This document shows, one piece after another, positions 2,441-20,057 of a DNA stretch of 24,089 nt. How positions within the stretch are numbered: position 1 is the first letter of the stretch; each line of letters opens with the position of its first letter. The stretch covers positions 1 to 24,089 of IMG/VR virus record IMGVR_UViG_3300044701_003987. The stretch is one strand, 5' to 3'. The stretch comes from a virus. Position numbers and translations under genes: made by a program. The notes beneath the pieces are model-generated. The model had not been told where the DNA came from, ran no database searches, and saw only the letters and a list, made by a program, of their open reading frames with translations.

Positions 2441-4018
2441 ATGTCTGTTGGCGGATTTGGTCAGGTTCAGACTCTTGGGACGTCGTTGGAGTTGTTGTAT
2501 GTCGAGTTGACGAAGAGTGCGCAGAAGATTCTGGAGGAACTGGGGACCAGTTGCGGGTCTTCGGGCGGGATGGACGACCGGGACGTGCCGGGGGGCGAGG
2601 ATCCGTTTGAGGCTGCGACGATCGACGACGTTCGGGAGATGCTGGCGACCGGAGAGAGTCTGGCGATCACGCCGTGGGGTGGGAACGCGACCGAGAACCG
2701 GATGTTTTACACGGTGGACACGGGGCACAACTATGCGGTGAAGCCTCGGAACGGTGAGATCGACAGTGAGTCGGTGAAGCGGGTTGAAGCGTTCCTGAAG
2801 ATCTGGCGGGACGAGAACGACTGGGCATCGCGTCAGGGTGAGGTGTCGCTGCGGGTGGACAAGCATGGTGAGTGCTTCGACCTGCTGTATTACGATGAGG
2901 ACGGGCTGCTGCGGACGTCGTTTGTGGAGCCGTCCGACTTGGAGGAAGACCCTCTGAGCCCGTATTTCAACGATGCGGAGTCTGACAGGCCGTTCATCGA
3001 GAATCTGGGCATTCGGCGGACGAACGACATCCGGAACCGTGACGTTGCGATGTTTGTGGACGGCGGCGGCGCCGGGAAGTGGATCGGTGACTTCCGGTAT
3101 CACTCCCGGCGTGGTGGTGTGGCGAACTGGGCGGCGTTTTCGCCGGATCTGCGGTGTTTGGTGAACTATCGTCGGCGGAATGTGCTTTCGGTGGATCCCC
3201 GGGGGCTGACGTTTTTCTGGCCGGTGCGACAGGAGTTGCGATGGGCGAAGACGTTGCTCAGCAATCTGATGCGGATATCGTCGTTTCAGGCCAGTTTTGG
3301 GGCGATCAGGACGATTTCGCAGGCGGTTGGTCCGGATGCGGTGCGGACGTTTCTGGCGTCGAACCAGACGGGCCGGAAGGACGCGGCGCCGGAGCAGATG
3401 GGCTTCCCTGCTCCGTCAGTGGTGACGGTGCCGAGCACTGTTCGGTACGAGTTCCCGGAGACGGGGGCTGGACAGTCGAACCATATCGAGGTTCTGGTCC
3501 AGTTACTACGGGCGTGCGCAGCGGGGATGAAGGTTCCTGAGTTTATGCTGACGGCGAACGTGAGCGAGGGGAATTTCGCGAGCACTTTGGTCAGCGAGGG
3601 TCCGTTCCACAAGGCGATGCGTCGGAACCAGGATCAGATGATTCGCGAGGATATGCTGATCATCAATCAGGCGATGCTCTACGCTGCTGAGAGCGGGAAT
3701 TTTGACCTAACGGTTGCGGATGTCAACGCCGTGTTTCTGGACGTCAAAGCACCTCGGGTTCAGACGCGGAACCGTATGGAGGACTTTGAGATCGGGAAGG
3801 CGTTGTGGGAGGGCGGACTGCTGGACGGCAAGACTCTGATGGCTCAGGAGAGTTACGACTTTGATCAGGCTCAGCAGCAGTTGAAGGTGGAGAGGGCGAA
3901 CGAGATTCCGCCTCCGATGATTATGAACGTGCAGCAACCGGGACCGGCGGCGGATCCGAAGAGTGATCCGATGAAGGAGCCCGGGGTGTCGAAGGGTGAT
4001 CCGACAAAAAGTGCGTGA
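2441..4018 (+). CDS. phage portal protein
   Basis: 525 residues from ATG 2441, chosen because GAGGGG at 2429-2434 lies 6 nt upstream; an upstream in-frame start at 2423 has no such site. Portals form the dodecameric ring at the head vertex through which DNA enters and to which connectors and tail attach. Support is position directly after TerL and before protease and capsid, usual portal length, an alpha/beta core, and a C-terminal half with MKVPEFMLTANVSEGNFAST followed by a long helical region, as in portal crown and clip regions. The C-terminus is rich in Pro, Lys and Asp and probably disordered. I cannot place it in a specific portal subfamily by eye. Confidence 0.85.
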   Translation: MSVGGFGQVQTLGTSLELLYVELTKSAQKILEELGTSCGSSGGMDDRDVPGGEDPFEAATIDDVREMLATGESLAITPWGGNATENRMFYTVDTGHNYAVKPRNGEIDSESVKRVEAFLKIWRDENDWASRQGEVSLRVDKHGECFDLLYYDEDGLLRTSFVEPSDLEEDPLSPYFNDAESDRPFIENLGIRRTNDIRNRDVAMFVDGGGAGKWIGDFRYHSRRGGVANWAAFSPDLRCLVNYRRRNVLSVDPRGLTFFWPVRQELRWAKTLLSNLMRISSFQASFGAIRTISQAVGPDAVRTFLASNQTGRKDAAPEQMGFPAPSVVTVPSTVRYEFPETGAGQSNHIEVLVQLLRACAAGMKVPEFMLTANVSEGNFASTLVSEGPFHKAMRRNQDQMIREDMLIINQAMLYAAESGNFDLTVADVNAVFLDVKAPRVQTRNRMEDFEIGKALWEGGLLDGKTLMAQESYDFDQAQQQLKVERANEIPPPMIMNVQQPGPAADPKSDPMKEPGVSKGDPTKSA

Positions 4019-4071
4019 TTTGGGAAAAATGTTTTGGTGGGACAGGATCCTCGTTTAGAAAAGGATGCGTC

Positions 4072-4161
4072 ATGTGCAATTGCTGGAAGAACAAAAAGCC
4101 AAAACCACCGGCGTTACCGCCGGCAACAACGGGCGCAGGTTCAAACGGGAACACGAAATGA
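4072..4161 (+). CDS. 29-residue Cys/Lys/Pro peptide coupled to protease gene
   Basis: ATG 4072 is 7 nt downstream of AAAAGGA (4059-4065), the best ribosome site in this gap. The frame runs MCNCWKNKKPKPPALPPATT to a TGA at 4159-4161 that overlaps the protease ATG at 4158 (ATGA). The site therefore serves this small frame, and the protease gene, which has only a weak site of its own, would be translated by coupling. The peptide is basic, Pro-rich and begins with CxC, like several other proteins in this window. It could be a genuine small protein or a translational leader. Confidence 0.55.
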   Translation: MCNCWKNKKPKPPALPPATTGAGSNGNTK

Positions 4162-5054
4162 GCGATCTGTTTACCTCGGATGCGTTTGAGCAGGTGGATG
4201 TCACTGAAGCAGAGACCGGCGTATTGAAGAACGTGAAGCTGCTGGGACTGCGATCGAAGAATCGAAGAACGTACGACACTGATGGCGTGCGGCGGACGGC
4301 GGCTTCGAAGTTGACCGGCGCGAGGATCTTTCTTGATCATCCCGATGAACCGAACAAGACTCGGCGATATTCCGATTCTTTTGGTGCTGTCGAGAGCGTC
4401 GAGTACCGGAGCGGGCAGGGGTGGTTTGGGACGATCAAATACAATCCGGAGCATCCGCTGGCAAAGAAGTTTGCGTGGGACGTCCGGAATGTCCCAAAGA
4501 CCTTTGGGATGAGTATCAACGCTGTTGCGAAGTTTGGTTCGCGGAACTCTGACGGCGACGTGGTTGTCGAATCTCTGGAGGAGATTCGTTCTGTTGATGT
4601 GGTGACTCGCCCCGGCACTGCTGAGGGCATTTTTGAGGAAGAGGATATGACGAAGCCAGGCGAATCTGCTGTGGATGCAGAGAAGGATGCTCTGATGGCA
4701 CAGTTGAAAGAGGCTCAGGAATCTCTCGCAGCTCTTCAGCGTGACGCTGCAGCCCAGAAGGAGCGAGCGGCGGTTACGGAGTCGTTTTCTGCGACGATGA
4801 AGGACATGCCGATCCCTGCTGATCTGCAGAAGGAGATTGTCGAGTGTGCCTGTCAGATGGCTGGCGACACTCGTGACAGGTTCAACGGCCTGCTGGCGAA
4901 GATGGGTCCGTTGTTCAAGTCTGTCGACGACAGCGAACTGGACGATACGGGTGTGAGCCCTGCTGCTGAAGAGTCTGAGAAGCCAGCGCCCCGTGTTGGG
5001 AGCGGCGGTCGGAAGGGTGGGTACAGCCTGCTCGAAAGCCTTGGCCTGAAGTGA
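4158..5054 (+). CDS. prohead protease fused to scaffold
   Basis: 298 residues from ATG 4158, coupled as ATGA to the upstream small frame; the longer frame from ATG 4065 lacks a spaced ribosome site. The first about 160 residues resemble prohead serine proteases: KNVKLLGLRSKNRRTYD, then LDHPDEP with candidate catalytic His61, TFGMSINAVA with Ser119, and RSVDVVTRPGT with Asp147. Such proteases cut scaffold and capsid delta domains during maturation. Residues about 164-240 are a charged, Ala/Glu/Gln-rich coiled coil typical of scaffolds, and the tail is Gly/Lys-rich. The gene sits between portal and capsid genes, as expected. The catalytic assignment is by motif spacing, not by alignment. Confidence 0.85.
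   Translation: MSDLFTSDAFEQVDVTEAETGVLKNVKLLGLRSKNRRTYDTDGVRRTAASKLTGARIFLDHPDEPNKTRRYSDSFGAVESVEYRSGQGWFGTIKYNPEHPLAKKFAWDVRNVPKTFGMSINAVAKFGSRNSDGDVVVESLEEIRSVDVVTRPGTAEGIFEEEDMTKPGESAVDAEKDALMAQLKEAQESLAALQRDAAAQKERAAVTESFSATMKDMPIPADLQKEIVECACQMAGDTRDRFNGLLAKMGPLFKSVDDSELDDTGVSPAAEESEKPAPRVGSGGRKGGYSLLESLGLK
4647..5054 (+). CDS. nested in-frame scaffold protein (internal start)
   Basis: Inside the protease-scaffold gene, ATG 4647 (Met164) is preceded by GAGGAA at 4635-4640 with 6-nt spacing, a good ribosome site exactly at the domain boundary. The 135-residue product would be the coiled-coil scaffold alone, MTKPGESAVDAEKDALMAQL onward. This matches the lambda C/Nu3 arrangement, in which the scaffold is made in excess from an internal start in the protease gene. 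The purine-rich run also encodes acidic residues (FEEEDM), so it could be a coincidence of coding. Confidence 0.55.
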   Translation: MTKPGESAVDAEKDALMAQLKEAQESLAALQRDAAAQKERAAVTESFSATMKDMPIPADLQKEIVECACQMAGDTRDRFNGLLAKMGPLFKSVDDSELDDTGVSPAAEESEKPAPRVGSGGRKGGYSLLESLGLK

Positions 5055-5083
5055 TTTCGCGTTTTTGATTGGAGAGAGCAGAG

Positions 5084-5614
5084 ATGCCACAGTGTTTTGA
5101 TTGCATGTATCAGCAGGGGCACACGGGGAACGGCCAGATCGAAGTTCGGTCGATGGGCGTCCCTGATCCCGCTGTCGACATTTGCCCCGGGGACTTTTTG
5201 ACGTCCACGGATCCTGTTGCCGGCGTGAAAGAGGCCGCGCTGATTTCGACGGTGGCTTGGGATACCGACCTCGCAACGACTCAGGAAGCTGCGAAGCTGG
5301 TGTTTGAGGGCGTTTCCGCACAGGAATACGACGACAACGCCTGCATCGAACAGCCGGACTGTCTTCCGTACTGGAAGTACCGTCAGGGGACTGGTTTCGC
5401 ACGATCTTACGAGATTGTGGACACCTCTGGTGTTGCGGCTCCGACGACTTGGCTGGAAGGTCAGGGATTCACGTTCGGCAAGAATGCGTCTTCGAACGCA
5501 CTTGTGAACAACAAGATCCAGAAGACCGACGTTGCTGAGTTGATCGTGTTTCGAGCGATTGCGAGCAGCGGCGTGACGGCACAGGGTCGTGCGATGGTTG
5601 AGTTTGCTGACTGA
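5084..5614 (+). CDS. probable head decoration or capsid-stabilising protein
   Basis: 176 residues from ATG 5084; GGAGAGAG just upstream supports this over the in-frame TTG at 5069. Its position between the protease/scaffold and the major capsid gene is where lambda-like phages encode decoration proteins. The sequence is beta-rich and Gly/Ala-rich with no helix bundles (for example EAALISTVAWDTDLATTQEA and the end VTAQGRAMVEFAD). It starts MPQCFDCMYQQG, with a CxxC, and has five cysteines. It is longer than lambda gpD (about 110 residues). Function rests on gene order; no family was recognised. Confidence 0.55.
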   Translation: MPQCFDCMYQQGHTGNGQIEVRSMGVPDPAVDICPGDFLTSTDPVAGVKEAALISTVAWDTDLATTQEAAKLVFEGVSAQEYDDNACIEQPDCLPYWKYRQGTGFARSYEIVDTSGVAAPTTWLEGQGFTFGKNASSNALVNNKIQKTDVAELIVFRAIASSGVTAQGRAMVEFAD

Positions 5615-9793: not shown

Positions 9794-10327
9794 ATGATCA
9801 AGGTTCAGATTGGCGGAACTGACCTTGTGATTGCTCCCAAACGGCTGCTCGACTACTGCGAGAAGATTGATTTCATAAAGTCTCGCAGAGAGCGGCCGTG
9901 GGATCTGTTGCAAAAGATTCCACGGAATTTGTCTGCGGCTGACTTCACGGCATTTGTGGAGGTGGCAATGCAGACCTGTTACAAGATGTCCTCTGCGGTT
10001 TCGATCCAGGAGGAAATGCAGTTCGACACGTCAGAGGAGGGGTTCTTTTACGACCTCTGGCGTGCGATTCGGCGTGGACAGCCGGAGAAGAGGTCGAAGC
10101 CGGTCAACAAGATCATGAACCCTTCTGCACAGGACACTGAGCCTTGGCGGAAGGGCATCATGGACGCCCGTTCTTTGTGGCAGTCGGCAACCGACGAAGA
10201 GCGATCGGCGATTAAGGCGGCGCTCTTCGCGTCCGATCAGCAGGCCGCATTAAAAAAATCCGATGGCCCGCCCGAGAGCGTGAGCAGCAGTCCGGGGGCA
10301 GCGGGCCAAACAGAACGGTCTCAATGA
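9794..10327 (+). CDS. tail assembly chaperone (G-type, zero frame)
   Basis: 177 residues from ATG 9794; AAAGGTGAAAG just upstream serves as ribosome site. In long-tailed phages, two chaperone forms (G and frameshifted GT) coat the tape measure and recruit tail tube protein. The protein begins with a beta hairpin (MIKVQIGGTDLVIAPKRLLD) and continues with helices (SAADFTAFVEVAMQTCYKM). An A AAA AAA slippery heptamer at 10252-10258 lies in the correct phase near the end, followed by a stable stem. The stop at 10325-10327 overlaps a -1 frame ATG at 10324. It lies between tube and tape-measure genes, exactly where G is expected. Confidence 0.85.
   Translation: MIKVQIGGTDLVIAPKRLLDYCEKIDFIKSRRERPWDLLQKIPRNLSAADFTAFVEVAMQTCYKMSSAVSIQEEMQFDTSEEGFFYDLWRAIRRGQPEKRSKPVNKIMNPSAQDTEPWRKGIMDARSLWQSATDEERSAIKAALFASDQQAALKKSDGPPESVSSSPGAAGQTERSQ
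10252..10308 (+). promoter_or_regulatory. -1 ribosomal frameshift signal in tail chaperone
   Basis: The zero frame reads TTA AAA AAA, giving the heptamer A AAA AAA at 10252-10258 in X XXY YYZ phase. After a 5-nt spacer (10259-10263), TGGCCCGC at 10264-10271 pairs perfectly with GCGGGCCA at 10301-10308, an 8-bp, mostly GC stem. Slippery site, short spacer and stable stem are the three elements of a programmed -1 frameshift. The -1 frame is then open to 10491. A slip yields 155 chaperone residues plus 77 new ones, 232 in total. Confidence 0.88.
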
Positions 10328-15352: not shown

Positions 15353-16078
15353 ATGGGGCAAACAGCAAGCAATAAGGGCGTGTTGGAGTGCTGCTGCGGT
15401 TGCGTGGGATCATGTTTTCCTTACACGTGTTCCGGGAGCGTCTGCACGCTGACTGATATTCCGTGGATAATTGATGCGCCAAATTGCCCTGCGATTGATG
15501 GTGCGTTCGGTGTGTTCTCGCCATTCACACTGGCCAGCAGTTTCCGCAAGGGTAAGTGTGGGCCGTGCGTGTGCTATGAATCAGTTGCGATCATCACCAT
15601 GCCAGGTAAGCAAAGATCTGAAACAGGTGGCGGATCCGAGTCTTTGGGGTTTGGAGATCCAATTGATCCGGAGGGGCCACCTGCGATTTGCACGACGTTT
15701 GACTGCACGATTCCGTTGCGTTTTTACCTCGGATTCGATGCGTCAATTGAGGGGTGCTGCACCGCATCGCTCGTCGTTGAAATGCTGAACACAGGATTGG
15801 CATTGAACTCGGGCGTTCCGCAGAAACCTAACACTATTGCGTGTATTCCACAGGCAGTACCGGTGGACAACACGAGGTTCCGGCAGTTCGATTTTGACTC
15901 CTGCACCTGTTTGCCACCACTGGGGACCGGCGCTGGATTTTCGGCGATCTTTGATCTGTCACGAATCACGTGGACTTGCAAGGCCGGAAATCACCCGGCA
16001 GACTCACCGTGTTATCCGTTCTCAAAATGTTGCGAGCTGTTCGGATGTTCCTTGGCGGGGGCGACGTTATCAATATGA
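15353..16078 (+). CDS. extremely Cys-rich tail-region protein
   Basis: 241 residues from ATG 15353, with AGGAG at the end of the preceding gene as ribosome site. I count 23 cysteines (about 9.5 percent), including LECCCGCVGSC at residues 11-21, GKCGPCVC, EGCC, CTC and SKCCELFGC. No membrane segment, signal peptide or catalytic motif is clear. Such content implies many disulfides or bound metal. By position it may be part of the tail tip or fibre. A Gly/Ser segment (GGGSESLGFGDPIDPEGPP) separates two halves. I do not recognise the family. The stop overlaps the next gene (ATGA). Confidence 0.6.
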   Translation: MGQTASNKGVLECCCGCVGSCFPYTCSGSVCTLTDIPWIIDAPNCPAIDGAFGVFSPFTLASSFRKGKCGPCVCYESVAIITMPGKQRSETGGGSESLGFGDPIDPEGPPAICTTFDCTIPLRFYLGFDASIEGCCTASLVVEMLNTGLALNSGVPQKPNTIACIPQAVPVDNTRFRQFDFDSCTCLPPLGTGAGFSAIFDLSRITWTCKAGNHPADSPCYPFSKCCELFGCSLAGATLSI

Positions 16079-16359
16079 CATCTGCATGCGAATGTTCTCA
16101 GTCTGGCTTTTGTTCACGACGAAACACAAAGGTTTCACTCGTTCACTGGGAGCGGTGTCAGTCTGGCGCCGTTGAGATCATTGACGGGCTGTACGAAAGG
16201 TTTGCGCTCAGCAAACAGTCTGAGGCAATTACGCAACAGACGTTGCCGCAGCCGACCGAGAATCGACGACCGTGCAATTGCGGCCCGAGTAAAAAAAAAG
16301 TGATGTCGTGCAGTTCGTGTGGCCGTACTGGCACGGCGGCGCCCGTGGCGATGAACTGA
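16075..16359 (+). CDS. small protein with two Cys-motif ends
   Basis: 94 residues from ATG 16075, overlapping the previous stop (ATGA). It starts MTSACECSQSGFC and ends with CNCGPSKKKVMSCSSCG (residues 68-84), which looks like a zinc ribbon or a disulfide cluster. The middle includes a helix (EIIDGLYERFALSKQSEAIT) and a Pro/Thr linker. An A9 tract at 16291-16299 encodes the KKK. A -1 shift there would join residues 1-75 to the downstream glycan enzyme, giving 741 residues. In the zero frame it overlaps that gene by 52 nt. Confidence 0.6.
   Translation: MTSACECSQSGFCSRRNTKVSLVHWERCQSGAVEIIDGLYERFALSKQSEAITQQTLPQPTENRRPCNCGPSKKKVMSCSSCGRTGTAAPVAMN
16291..16299 (+). promoter_or_regulatory. A9 tract, possible frameshift or slippage site
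   Basis: Nine As encode Lys73-75 of the small Cys-motif protein and contain A AAA AAA in -1 slippery phase at 16293-16299. The -1 frame has a TAA at 16290-16292 and is then open through the glycan enzyme to 18299. A short stem, GCCGT (16322-16326) with ACGGC (16333-16337), lies 22 nt downstream, further than usual for a ribosomal frameshift signal, so transcriptional slippage or tract-length variation is equally possible. Confidence 0.45.
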
Positions 16360-18299
16360 GATTCAGCATTCGCAGCGTTGAAAAGTTTTTTGACTCGCAA
16401 GTCAAATGCACGCTGATTGGCGATAGACCACCGTGGTTCACTGGTCACGTGATTGATCAGGAGCGTGTGAACAACCAGCAGTATCGCGGATTCAGAGATA
16501 TGCTGGCCAAGGTCCACACCATGGCTCACCATCCCGAGATCGACGAAAAGTTCGTGTGGATGATGGACGACATTTACCTTCTTCGAGACCTGTCGTGGGA
16601 CGACCTGAATGTCCCGAGGGCGTACAGGTGGGCTGATATCAGAACGTCAACGTGGCAGAGGTTGAAAAGCAACTCGATGCGTCAACTGAAGATGCGCGGG
16701 CGGACCACTCACGACTACGCCACTCACCTGCCGCACACGGCAGAGAAAGAAAAGCTCAGGCAGATTTTCCGAGACTTTGACCTCGTCCAGAACACGATGC
16801 TTTGGGAGGTGTTGTATGGGAATCTGTTCCGAGAAAACCCACAGGAGCCGGGAGAGTTTTTTGTTCGCACCTCTGGGACCGACAGGCTGAAAACCATTCA
16901 GAAAAAGACCTCGAAAGCATTTGTGCTCAACCACACAGATGACGGGTGGAACGCCGGCATGCGTGAGTTTCTGCTGGGGTTACTTCCAGACCCCTCTCCC
17001 AACGAGCATGAAGGCGTTGATGTTGCGTTCAAGACTCCGGAAGGCGAAATCAGGACCCCGAAGAAGGTGACACACGTGCCAATGAATTTGAGAAAAACGC
17101 TCCCACACTATCTGTTGATTCAGTCTGCGTATGCTGATCCTGAACTGTCTCGAAGGCGTCTTGCGATCTCTCGCGCGACGTGTATTCCTTCGCTGAAAGA
17201 GCAGACACAGAAACCAGTTCTTCATGTGGTTGTCAATACTGGCGATCCTTTGCTCGATGAACGCAAAGCAGCGTTTTTGCAGACTGGGTGCGAGGTGAAA
17301 TTCATTGAGAGAGATCGTTGGAAATTGTATGCAGAGGACTGGGAGTTGCCGGCTATTCGGCGTGTCACCAGTCGGGTCGACGACGATGACATACTTTGCC
17401 GCCAGTTTATTGAGATGGTCAACAAGGCGGCTCCGGCTTCCGGAGATTACGCGATCACGTGGCCGACTGGTTACGTGTACTGGAGAGGCCATTTTTATAG
17501 CCTGACACACCCCGGAAATCAGTTTGTGTCTCTGGTGTCATCGTCGTTTGATCCGCATCAGATTGGTCACTGGGAGTTTCATCAAAGCTGGAAAACCAAA
17601 GTCGTGACTGATGCTCCGGGATGGATCTGGGTGAGACACGGAGACACCAGCAGCAGCACCCTTGAGAAGTATCGAACGCGACTGGTCAGGAATCCCAACC
17701 TGAAGGATATGCCGATAGACGTGACCGCAGTCGACATGGCGACTGCCGGCTCGGGCGTGGCGTCTGAAAACTATCGACAGCACGCGACTCCGGCCGTGAA
17801 GCCGCAGACCGTTTCGGATTACCTGAAGGTGTTTGGCAGTGACAAGGTTACTCTGCACAGCTACGGGCAGTTTTACGACTCGCTGTTTGAGCGAGTAAAA
17901 CCAAGTCGCCTGCTGGAAATTGGTGGATATCGTGGAGCCAGCATGAAGGCATGGAAGGCAGCGAGCCCCGGGCTTTGGTCGGTGGTGATCGACAGAACGC
18001 CAATCCCTGGGCACGACACGATTCTGTGTGTGACTCCAGACTACTGGCCAGCGATTCAGAGGCTGTCACAGTTACCTCAACTGGACGTCATTATTGATGA
18101 CGGATCACACAAGGTTGGCTGTCAGGTCAGCGGCGCAAACAATCTGATGCAATTTTTGAGGCCGGGTGGCGTCTACGCAATTGAGGACCTTCAGAATCAG
18201 GACGTGATCGACTATTTCAGCAGCCAAGGCTGGACAATCGAAGATTACCGCATTCGCAGTGGCCGGTATGACGACGTGATTGCGTGGAAGGTGAAGTAG
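16308..18299 (+). CDS. three-domain glycan enzyme: glycosyltransferases plus sugar O-methyltransferase
   Basis: 663 residues from GTG 16308, which has no visible ribosome site; it may be expressed as a frameshift fusion. Domain 1 (about 1-230) starts FVWPYWHGG and has ELRFSIRSVEKFF and FVWMMDDIYLL (D87, D88), like Stealth-type or GT-A sugar transferases. Domain 2 (about 265-460) resembles putative rhamnosyltransferases: RRLAISRATCIPSLKEQT, then VTSRVDDDDIL (D358-361) and HGDTSSS. Domain 3 (about 505-663) matches class I methyltransferases of the macrocin/rhamnosyl O-methyltransferase kind: GSDKVTLHSYGQFYD, LLEIGGYRGAS, DVIIDDGSH (probable metal-binding acids), GGVYAIEDLQ. It could build and methylate a sugar on virion protein or host glycan. 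Domain calls are from motifs. Confidence 0.75.
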   Translation: MQFVWPYWHGGARGDELRFSIRSVEKFFDSQVKCTLIGDRPPWFTGHVIDQERVNNQQYRGFRDMLAKVHTMAHHPEIDEKFVWMMDDIYLLRDLSWDDLNVPRAYRWADIRTSTWQRLKSNSMRQLKMRGRTTHDYATHLPHTAEKEKLRQIFRDFDLVQNTMLWEVLYGNLFRENPQEPGEFFVRTSGTDRLKTIQKKTSKAFVLNHTDDGWNAGMREFLLGLLPDPSPNEHEGVDVAFKTPEGEIRTPKKVTHVPMNLRKTLPHYLLIQSAYADPELSRRRLAISRATCIPSLKEQTQKPVLHVVVNTGDPLLDERKAAFLQTGCEVKFIERDRWKLYAEDWELPAIRRVTSRVDDDDILCRQFIEMVNKAAPASGDYAITWPTGYVYWRGHFYSLTHPGNQFVSLVSSSFDPHQIGHWEFHQSWKTKVVTDAPGWIWVRHGDTSSSTLEKYRTRLVRNPNLKDMPIDVTAVDMATAGSGVASENYRQHATPAVKPQTVSDYLKVFGSDKVTLHSYGQFYDSLFERVKPSRLLEIGGYRGASMKAWKAASPGLWSVVIDRTPIPGHDTILCVTPDYWPAIQRLSQLPQLDVIIDDGSHKVGCQVSGANNLMQFLRPGGVYAIEDLQNQDVIDYFSSQGWTIEDYRIRSGRYDDVIAWKVK

Positions 18300-18301
18300 C
18301 A

Positions 18302-19033
18302 ATGGAAGCAGTAACGACCATCATTGTCTGCGTGGAGTTCGCCGACTTCCTGTCGGTGACACTCCCGTGGAACCGGGAAGTGCTCGACCGGGTGCTGGTC
18401 GTTACGGATCCGGAGGACGAGCAGACACTTGACGTCGCGTCACAGAGTAATGTGAGTGTCCTGACCACGAAGGTGTTCTTCGAGCGTGAAGCTCAGTTCA
18501 ACAAATGGAGCGCGGTGAATCAGGGCGTCGAGTACCTCGGAGTTCGCGGTTGGTGTTTGATTCTGGATGCCGACCTGATGCTCCCGCAGTCCCGGAGAAT
18601 TGACGGGCTGAAGCGAGGACACCTGTATCAGACTCGAAGAGTTCAGGTTCCGGCATGGCGGACGAAGATCGAGCCAGAGAAGAACTGGAGGAGGTACAAG
18701 CGGATGCGGGAGTTCGCTGGAGGGTACTTCCACCTGTTTCACACTGAAGATCCGGAGGTTCGCAGCAGTCCGTATCTGGACTGCTGGCGTTGGTGTGCGA
18801 CTGGTGACGCAGAATTCGAGAGTCACTGGCCGGAGTCTCGGAAAGTCCTGTTGCCGTTTGACGTGGTGCATCTCGGGACTCCGCAGGTGAACTGGTGCGG
18901 CCGGTCGGAGCCGTTTCGCGACGGCAGTCTGCCCGAGCGGTCTGCGGAGCGTCGTGACGCTGTTGCTGCGATGCAGAGGCAGGTCCGGATCAACGCTGGT
19001 CTCGATGACCGCTATCAGGGGCACAAACTGTGA
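18302..19033 (+). CDS. GT-A type glycosyltransferase
   Basis: 243 residues from ATG 18302, 2 nt after the previous stop; the ribosome site lies in AAGGTGAAG. The fold pattern is a nucleotide-sugar transferase: an N-terminal strand (TTIIVCVEFADF), FNKWSAVNQGVEYLG, then WCLILDADLMLP with the metal-binding DAD at residues 89-91. Later HTED and VVHLGTPQVNWCGR may form the acceptor side. Glycosyltransferases in phage tail regions can modify virion proteins, DNA or host surface glycans. Substrate cannot be told from sequence. The stop overlaps the next gene (GTGA). Confidence 0.75.
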   Translation: MEAVTTIIVCVEFADFLSVTLPWNREVLDRVLVVTDPEDEQTLDVASQSNVSVLTTKVFFEREAQFNKWSAVNQGVEYLGVRGWCLILDADLMLPQSRRIDGLKRGHLYQTRRVQVPAWRTKIEPEKNWRRYKRMREFAGGYFHLFHTEDPEVRSSPYLDCWRWCATGDAEFESHWPESRKVLLPFDVVHLGTPQVNWCGRSEPFRDGSLPERSAERRDAVAAMQRQVRINAGLDDRYQGHKL

Positions 19034-19755
19034 ACGTGGTGGTTTTCGTTCGAAGCGAGTATTTCGAGGAGGACAGCTCAAAGTACCGGCTGGCCATCAG
19101 CAACGAGACTTTGATTCCCGGTCTCAGGGAAATGGAGTTCGCTGGGCACGCGGTGACTGTGGTACTCCGGATGTCTCCGATGGATCCGAGGTGGAGCGCT
19201 CGAAGGCGAGCATTCGAGTCAACCGGGTTTCCCGTGAGAATGTGGTACGACACGATCGGCATTGGCATGGCCAAAGGCCGAATGCCGTTCGTTGAGGTAA
19301 ATGTGCCCGACGACATCGGACTTCGTGCTGACTGGCTGATGAGGACGGCCGACGTGATCGACGGGATTCCATGGGGGCCGGAGAACGTATGGATCAATCA
19401 TGCGTCCGGGTACTGGTTTGCGGAAGACGGGATCCGAGAGTGCGAGGCGGGGATTCCTCCGCTGAAGGTGCGGCTGGTACAGACCGGGAAACGTGTTCCC
19501 CCTCGTTCGGTAGCTGGGGCAACTGAGCCAATCTGGATAAAGCCTAGTCACCGAATGATGGATCCATTTGAATTGCGGGGTTTGGGCGAGAATCTGGTGA
19601 ATAAGTTTTGCTGGGGCTCAATTCATGTGAATACACTCCGGCGGTACTGCGGGCTTTCGCTCTGCACAGGGACTGCGGTCGGTGCAACGGCGTGTCGGCA
19701 TCGCAGCAAGTCTATAATCCATGCACGAGATTATCGAGGCGGGCGTCTCCGATGA
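19030..19755 (+). CDS. rhamnosyltransferase-like paralogue lacking acidic motif
   Basis: 241 residues from GTG 19030, overlapping the previous stop; AGGGG lies about 10 nt upstream. It aligns by eye to the middle domain of the three-domain enzyme: RLAISNETLIPGL against RLAISRATCIPSL, and DPRWSARRRAFESTGFPV against DPLLDERKAAFLQTGCEV. Where that domain has VDDDDILCR, this protein has GLRADWLMR, so the catalytic acids appear lost. NVWINHASGYWFAEDG matches YAITWPTGYVYWRGHF. It may be a non-catalytic partner or a degenerate copy. The C-terminus is Arg/Cys-rich and differs from the homologue. Confidence 0.6.
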   Translation: MNVVVFVRSEYFEEDSSKYRLAISNETLIPGLREMEFAGHAVTVVLRMSPMDPRWSARRRAFESTGFPVRMWYDTIGIGMAKGRMPFVEVNVPDDIGLRADWLMRTADVIDGIPWGPENVWINHASGYWFAEDGIRECEAGIPPLKVRLVQTGKRVPPRSVAGATEPIWIKPSHRMMDPFELRGLGENLVNKFCWGSIHVNTLRRYCGLSLCTGTAVGATACRHRSKSIIHARDYRGGRLR

Positions 19756-20057
19756 GTCTTACAAATCTGATCATGTTCTGGCTCGCGGTGTTCGGCATCA
19801 GCGTCACCATGTCTGAGCTTCATGGTCCATTTGCTGTCTGCAGCAAAATTCGCAAGTTTATTTGGGCGAAGACGAACTCAGAATGGATCCGGGACGGGAT
19901 TTACTGCCCGATCTGCGTTTCGTTCTGGGTTTCGATACCAATGGTTGTTGTGGTGAGTCCCCATGTTACGGTGAACGAGTTCCTCGGCGCGTGGCTCAGT
20001 GGCGTTGGATTCACAGCGGCAATCAAATATTTGTCTCCTCCACACGAGGAAGCATAG
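19752..20057 (+). CDS. DUF1360-like membrane protein
   Basis: 101 residues from ATG 19752, overlapping the previous stop (ATGA). An N-terminal membrane helix (LTNLIMFWLAVFGISVTMSE), then HGPFAVCSKIRKF, YCPICVSFWVSIP with a CPIC motif starting the second helix, and a third helix (FLGAWLSGVGFTAAIKYL). The order GPF, R-K, CxxC-S-x-W-V matches DUF1360 membrane proteins of unknown function. It is the last gene before a strong terminator, in the same coupled string as the glycosyltransferases, so it may anchor them or act in the same envelope-related process. Confidence 0.6.
   Translation: MSLTNLIMFWLAVFGISVTMSELHGPFAVCSKIRKFIWAKTNSEWIRDGIYCPICVSFWVSIPMVVVVSPHVTVNEFLGAWLSGVGFTAAIKYLSPPHEEA

Follow-up and report, generated by a model that had tools for sequence, protein, structure and literature searches.

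The long ORF behind the tail genes of this phage raises two linked questions: what might its product do, and where does that product begin? The window analysed here, an IMG/VR viral record of 24,089 bases taken in full, carries terminase and portal genes. The initial annotation had proposed a single protein with two glycosyltransferase (GT) domains and a sugar O-methyltransferase (MT) domain, placed right after the tail genes. The coordinates that it gave for this ORF are exact, and all the motifs that it named are found in the 663-aa translation: WMMDDIYLL (residues 84-92), SRVDDDD, LLEIGGYRGAS (535-545), IIDDGSH (595-601), and IEDLQ (625-629). Our preferred answer, to which we give a probability of roughly 0.55, is that the product of this tailed-phage locus is a multi-domain enzyme acting on glycans, to which a Cys-rich module is joined by slippage on a run of nine A's, and which most likely decorates the virion.

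Table 1. Features of the locus, in window coordinates
Feature	Position	Strand	Description
Cys-rich small ORF	16075..16359	+	94 aa, MTSACECSQSGFCSRRN...CNCGPSKKKVMSCSSCGRTGT...; ATGA overlap with preceding gene; proposed N-terminal module of the enzyme
A9 run	16291..16299	+	AGT AAA AAA AAA GTG as read in the small ORF; candidate slippery site from which a -1 shift would enter the enzyme frame
28-nt identity in the overlap	16308..16335	+	Window identical to L013; frames CSSCGRTG and VQFVWPYWH
Enzyme ORF	16308..18299	+	663 aa, GTG start; homologue L013 10207-12228
Domain 1	16308..16997	+	Residues 1-230; Stealth-like, predicted sugar or sugar-phosphate transferase; DD at 87-88
Domain 2	17100..17687	+	Residues 265-460; rhamnosyltransferase-like GT-A; SRVDDDD 355-361
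Domain 3	17805..18296	+	Residues 500-663; predicted macrocin-type SAM O-methyltransferase
gt2	18302..19033	+	GT2-like glycosyltransferase, Glyco_tranf_2_4 E 0.00033 (below cut-off); in L013, L014, L017, L019, L021, L023
gt3	19030..19755	+	Diverged domain 2 relative; tblastn of P0001 E 1.8e-5; L025 enzyme versus gt3 E 4e-7; same phages as gt2

Domain architecture of the enzyme ORF

Domain 3 matches the methyltransferase family phrog_21658 (E 1.3e-11, residues 507-638), and both its sequence and its predicted fold (pLDDT about 77-96) match SpnK and MycE in the PDB, macrocin-type enzymes that methylate a sugar hydroxyl and whose SAM, DDGSH, and ED motifs align with those of the phage domain. The metal-binding and catalytic residues D275, H278, E303, and D304 of MycE align with D598, H601, E626, and D627 of the window enzyme (the MycE chain in the alignment is numbered 20 higher than in the literature). 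These four residues are invariant in L013, a second contig, and present in the relatives L026 and L028. The Pfam family Methyltransf_24 scores 13.6 bits, below its cut-off, in the window and passes it in L026 and L028. The match to MycE and SpnK, with the SAM motif and key residues kept, bears out the macrocin-type assignment made initially. In contrast to these enzymes, the phage domain is fused behind two transferase domains, and only the C-terminal domain of the protein matches them.

Domain 2 passes the cut-off of the Pfam family Rhamno_transf (PF11316; E 4.1e-6, 26.8 bits against a cut-off of 23, residues 276-450), as does its counterpart in L026, and the Foldseek matches of its predicted model (pLDDT mostly 70-97) are bifunctional GT-A synthases. 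The PF11316 family is itself labeled "putative." By family and predicted fold, domain 2 is a rhamnosyltransferase-like GT-A domain, as had been proposed, with transfer of rhamnose being putative.

Domain 1 matches phrog_7999, a family of unknown function (E 2.6e-13, residues 4-181), and, below cut-off, Pfam Stealth_CR2 (E 0.003, residues 15-99); weak Stealth_CR2 matches are found in 10 of 24 relatives (best E 0.00047). The predicted model of the window domain is of low confidence, and its fold is represented by domain 1 of L026, which is 55% identical to it over the aligned region and has as best PDB matches two Stealth sugar-phosphotransferases, Mycobacterium tuberculosis CpsY (8j2n, E 1.7e-9) and animal GNPTAB (7s6n, E 2.9e-9). 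In the alignment with GNPTAB, the ELRxSxRSxE, DD, and HxPH motifs are kept, but the Asn of the NDD motif is replaced by Met (residue 86); the window also differs from these proteins in having LNHT (207-210) for the CLND of Stealth region 4 and a Pfam score below cut-off. The published region 1 (IDVVYTF) and region 4 (CLND) consensus motifs (PMC10668966) were both looked for in the window and not found, VQFVWPYW and VLNHT standing, by eye, at the corresponding ends. Because these two motifs are lacking, domain 1 is best called Stealth-like rather than a member of the family, and to this extent the fold match of L026 agrees with its earlier description as Stealth/GT-A-like. Known Stealth-fold members transfer sugar-1-phosphates, so that "adding sugars" may here mean adding a sugar-phosphate.

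Glycan addition and O-methylation are, at the level of protein families, well supported as predicted functions: the Stealth-like and rhamnosyltransferase-like domains would add sugars or sugar-phosphate, and the macrocin-type domain would then O-methylate the product. A role in anti-phage defense was dropped, a PADLOC search having given no match.

Relatives of the enzyme

A single-protein query gave no match in viral and genome collections. Relatives in the viral collection were obtained only after a two-sequence alignment was used as query, and that alignment gave no match in bacterial and archaeal genomes. Sequenced actinobacteriophages have only remote relatives of domain 1 and of the methyltransferase (Patt gp6, Cece gp215, and prophiFVLQ01-1 gp49).

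L013 encodes the same three-domain architecture in a protein of 673 aa that is 66% identical to the window enzyme, so the architecture is neither a chance product nor an assembly chimera. The single GT-GT-MT polypeptide is confined to these two; in the other relatives examined, domains 1 and 2 are encoded by separate, usually overlapping, genes. The earlier view of three domains in one protein holds for the window and L013, does not extend to the relatives, and overlooked the probable N-terminal Cys-rich module described below. C-terminal to domain 2 stands a methyltransferase in L026 and L028, another GT domain in loci of the L033 type, and nothing in L030; by this comparison of genes, the partner is a part that is swapped within the gene. 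At L033 7813-9219 and similar loci, found in many relatives, the partner replacing the methyltransferase is a GT2-family domain.

A Cys-rich module upstream of domain 1

The enzyme ORF starts inside an overlapping Cys-rich ORF (94-110 aa across the window and L013). The encoded module, with the pattern CxC..GxC.RR....H..C, has no match in Pfam or PHROGs. It is 65% conserved in L013 and more weakly in L014, L021, L023, L052, L079, and L080; L014, L052, L079, and L080 carry it as an in-frame part of other enzymes, and in L021 and L023 it is free-standing. Judged by these occurrences, the module is portable. Its Cys/His pattern suggests zinc binding, and our guess at its role is that it docks onto whichever protein is modified. 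The fusions lie at L014 9724-11184 (with a phosphoribosyltransferase) and, with unassigned partners, at L052 5646-6848, L079 about 4001-5329, and L080 about 4001-5248.

We collected 63 distinct readable junctions from the domain 1 relatives found in two alignment-based searches, excluding the window and L013, and in all 63 one reading frame covers both an N-terminal Cys-rich module and domain 1. Examples are L026 (...RPQPRSCGGCGSFKRRDSA-VQFVWPYW) and L029 (...CGGCGTVKKRSDV-LQFVYPYW). At the place of the first residue of the reported ORF, many relatives have Thr, or a Val whose codon is GTT or GTC, so the reported start is not general. The window and L013 have the only split junctions, and both have T-A9-G where relatives encode basic residues after CGGCG; the L013 run (10187-10195) matches that of the window in position and phase. 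A runs at the 63 fused junctions reach 6 at most. Since every other junction is fused and the only two that are split carry nine A's exactly there, a slippage reading is strengthened. By comparison of genes, the joining of both GT domains and the methyltransferase in one polypeptide is a second rearrangement common to the window and L013 only.

The A9 run at the frame junction

The Cys-rich frame reads AAA AAA AAA through the run and terminates at 16359. The enzyme frame has a TAA stop here, made up of the T preceding the run and the first two of the nine A's, so the enzyme cannot be read from upstream without a slip. A -1 slip would give, in the window, ...CNCGPSKKK-SDV-VQFVWPYW, in which the SDV ahead of the GT domain matches L029. 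Scored against a profile of the fused relatives, this -1 fusion reaches 379.4 bits versus 360.5 for the ORF alone in the window, and 383.3 versus 363.8 in L013, a gain of about 19-20 bits in both phages. When the residues of the N-terminal part were shuffled, the mean score was 365.9 for the window and 369.2 for L013 (a gain of about 5 bits), and in neither phage did any of 300 shuffles equal the score of the actual sequence. Read with the -1 shift, the sequence is homologous to the fused relatives, and the protein probably has a fourth, N-terminal module that it would acquire through such a slip.

No other A9 occurs in the window, where 0.16 would be expected. Both phages retain the run despite their divergence: third-position agreement at conserved residues is only 54% between the window and L013, and 19 of 97 conserved lysines are AAA in both. 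A pattern scan of further phages for an A run before QFVWPYW returned the L013 contig only. The combination that marks programmed slippage, a slippery run in the right phase at the frame junction of one protein, is present here and conserved in two phages only, which stand for a single event in evolution.

Just after the run, the overlap contains 28 nt identical between the two phages, the second longest identity in their 6.6-kb alignment, the next longest within the enzyme ORF being 16 nt. Such identity is expected if both overlapping frames are used, i.e., if the unshifted product is used as well. A separate identity of 23 nt to L013 (window 16058-16080) spans the ATGA stop/start overlap of two Cys-rich genes.

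We looked for a stimulatory RNA structure 3' of the run and found no unusually stable one, which weighs against ribosomal frameshifting only and favors transcriptional slippage over a stimulated ribosomal frameshift. Nine A's allow efficient RNA-polymerase slippage in bacteria, and AAA_AAA_AAA is strongly avoided in Escherichia coli genes (reviewed in PMC5009743). In dnaX of Thermus and tssM of Citrobacter (PMC5009743, PMC4256274), a run of at least nine A's or T's likewise joins two frames and gives two products, both of which are needed in the case of tssM (PMC4256274). The present case differs in being a phage glycan-modification gene known from sequence alone, and its novelty is a site of likely slippage through which a fourth module would be joined.

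Alternative explanations of the split

An unlikely explanation, although several observations agree with it, is that an indel broke an old fusion into two proteins, the 663-aa enzyme being made from its GTG by translational coupling and the Cys-rich protein acting apart from it or in complex with it. The GTG is the sole in-frame start, in both phages 8-11 nt past the run, a domain 1 translated from it would be complete (the phrog_7999 match begins at residue 4), the 28-nt identity could mark an initiation region, and the related module of L021 and L023 stands alone without an A run. The lack of a Shine-Dalgarno sequence before the GTG was dropped as evidence, since weak sites are typical of most genes here, which also suits separate translation. 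The run would then have arisen by chance from Lys codons, or serve ribosomes as a landing site free of structure. However, the three to four codons between run and GTG, which would be untranslated in two separate proteins, still resemble the linkers of relatives (SDV as in L029; SSSA), and an accident is hard to reconcile with nine A's kept exactly despite 54% third-position agreement.

The remaining two explanations place the difference in the DNA itself. We think it improbable that the run toggles in length, A9 giving the split (off) state and A10 the fused (on) state, with mixed coat types in a population, since both consensus sequences have A9, with no A10 or A8, and phages show phase variation less commonly than their hosts do. 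One extra A would nevertheless open the frame from 16075 into the enzyme, and homopolymer runs in surface-modifying genes are classic sites of such switching (PMC3711429). An ordinary fusion with a real run length of A10 would agree with every other relative being fused and with homopolymers being error-prone in general, but it requires the same miscall in two separate contigs that share no more than 68.5% identity across their 6.6-kb alignment, which makes a consensus error improbable.

Slippage at the A9 run, which we prefer, would work by addition of one A to the mRNA by RNA polymerase, or by a -1 ribosomal slip on A_AAA_AAA. The Cys-rich, putatively zinc-binding module would then belong to the same protein, one frame away: slippage would make a fraction of the product a full-length Cys-rich-GT-GT-MT fusion of ~740 aa, the unslipped remainder being a short Cys-rich protein with CSSCG at its end. 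Should the slip be real, gene callers give wrong proteins for this phage, and recoding controls one of its glycan-modification genes. More tentatively, and at somewhat less than even odds, the length of the run may set, through transcriptional slippage, the ratio of free Cys-rich module to four-module enzyme. The virus would thereby tune glycan modification (or switch it, by a change in run length), and a recoding site would have arisen where relatives have a plain fusion.

Gene neighborhood and likely target

The placement of the enzyme after structural genes is confirmed by the terminase, the portal, and gene order. The enzyme is absent from terminase relatives, the first sign that the cassette is variable. 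Among related phages gathered through terminase or tail proteins, gt2 and gt3, two further genes of this kind immediately downstream of the enzyme ORF, are kept and the content between the tail genes and gt2 is swapped. This interval holds the three-domain ORF in L013, the Cys-rich/phosphoribosyltransferase fusion and a methyltransferase-like gene in L014, radical-SAM-like proteins (by Cys motif) among others in L021 and L023, and several more transferase-like genes in L017, some of these labels resting on motifs only. In unrelated tailed phages such as L030, relatives of domains 1 and 2 lie a few genes behind the tape-measure gene, a parallel placement. By gene content, the region downstream of the tail genes is a hypervariable, exchanged glycan cassette; the locus illustrates how a mobile set of sugar enzymes is re-assorted among unrelated phages just behind the tail genes, and it turns the function of a recurrent Cys-rich N-terminal module with no entry in Pfam or PHROGs into a directly testable question.

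Together with gt2 and gt3, the enzyme would most likely decorate a virion protein (tail or capsid), the alternative target being a glycan of the host surface. Decoration of the virion with glycans is plausible and is the target that we infer by preference, from gene position and from glycosylated mycobacteriophages: as summarized in PMC11256854, which cites Freeman et al. 2023, Che8 and Rita carry glycans on their major capsid protein and encode glycosyltransferases. The window phage has phage-encoded glycosyltransferases in common with these two, as that summary describes them, but is known from its genes alone, whereas in Che8 and Rita the capsid protein is glycosylated. The literature searched gave no direct precedent for methylated phage glycans.

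A small membrane-protein gene at about 19755-20057 is also constant beside gt2 and gt3, the variable stretch corresponding to the region of window 16360-18300. Immediately before the cassette, Cys-rich proteins with no PHROGs match are encoded both in the window (15353-16078) and in L030 (6033-6761), and these could be the modified proteins.
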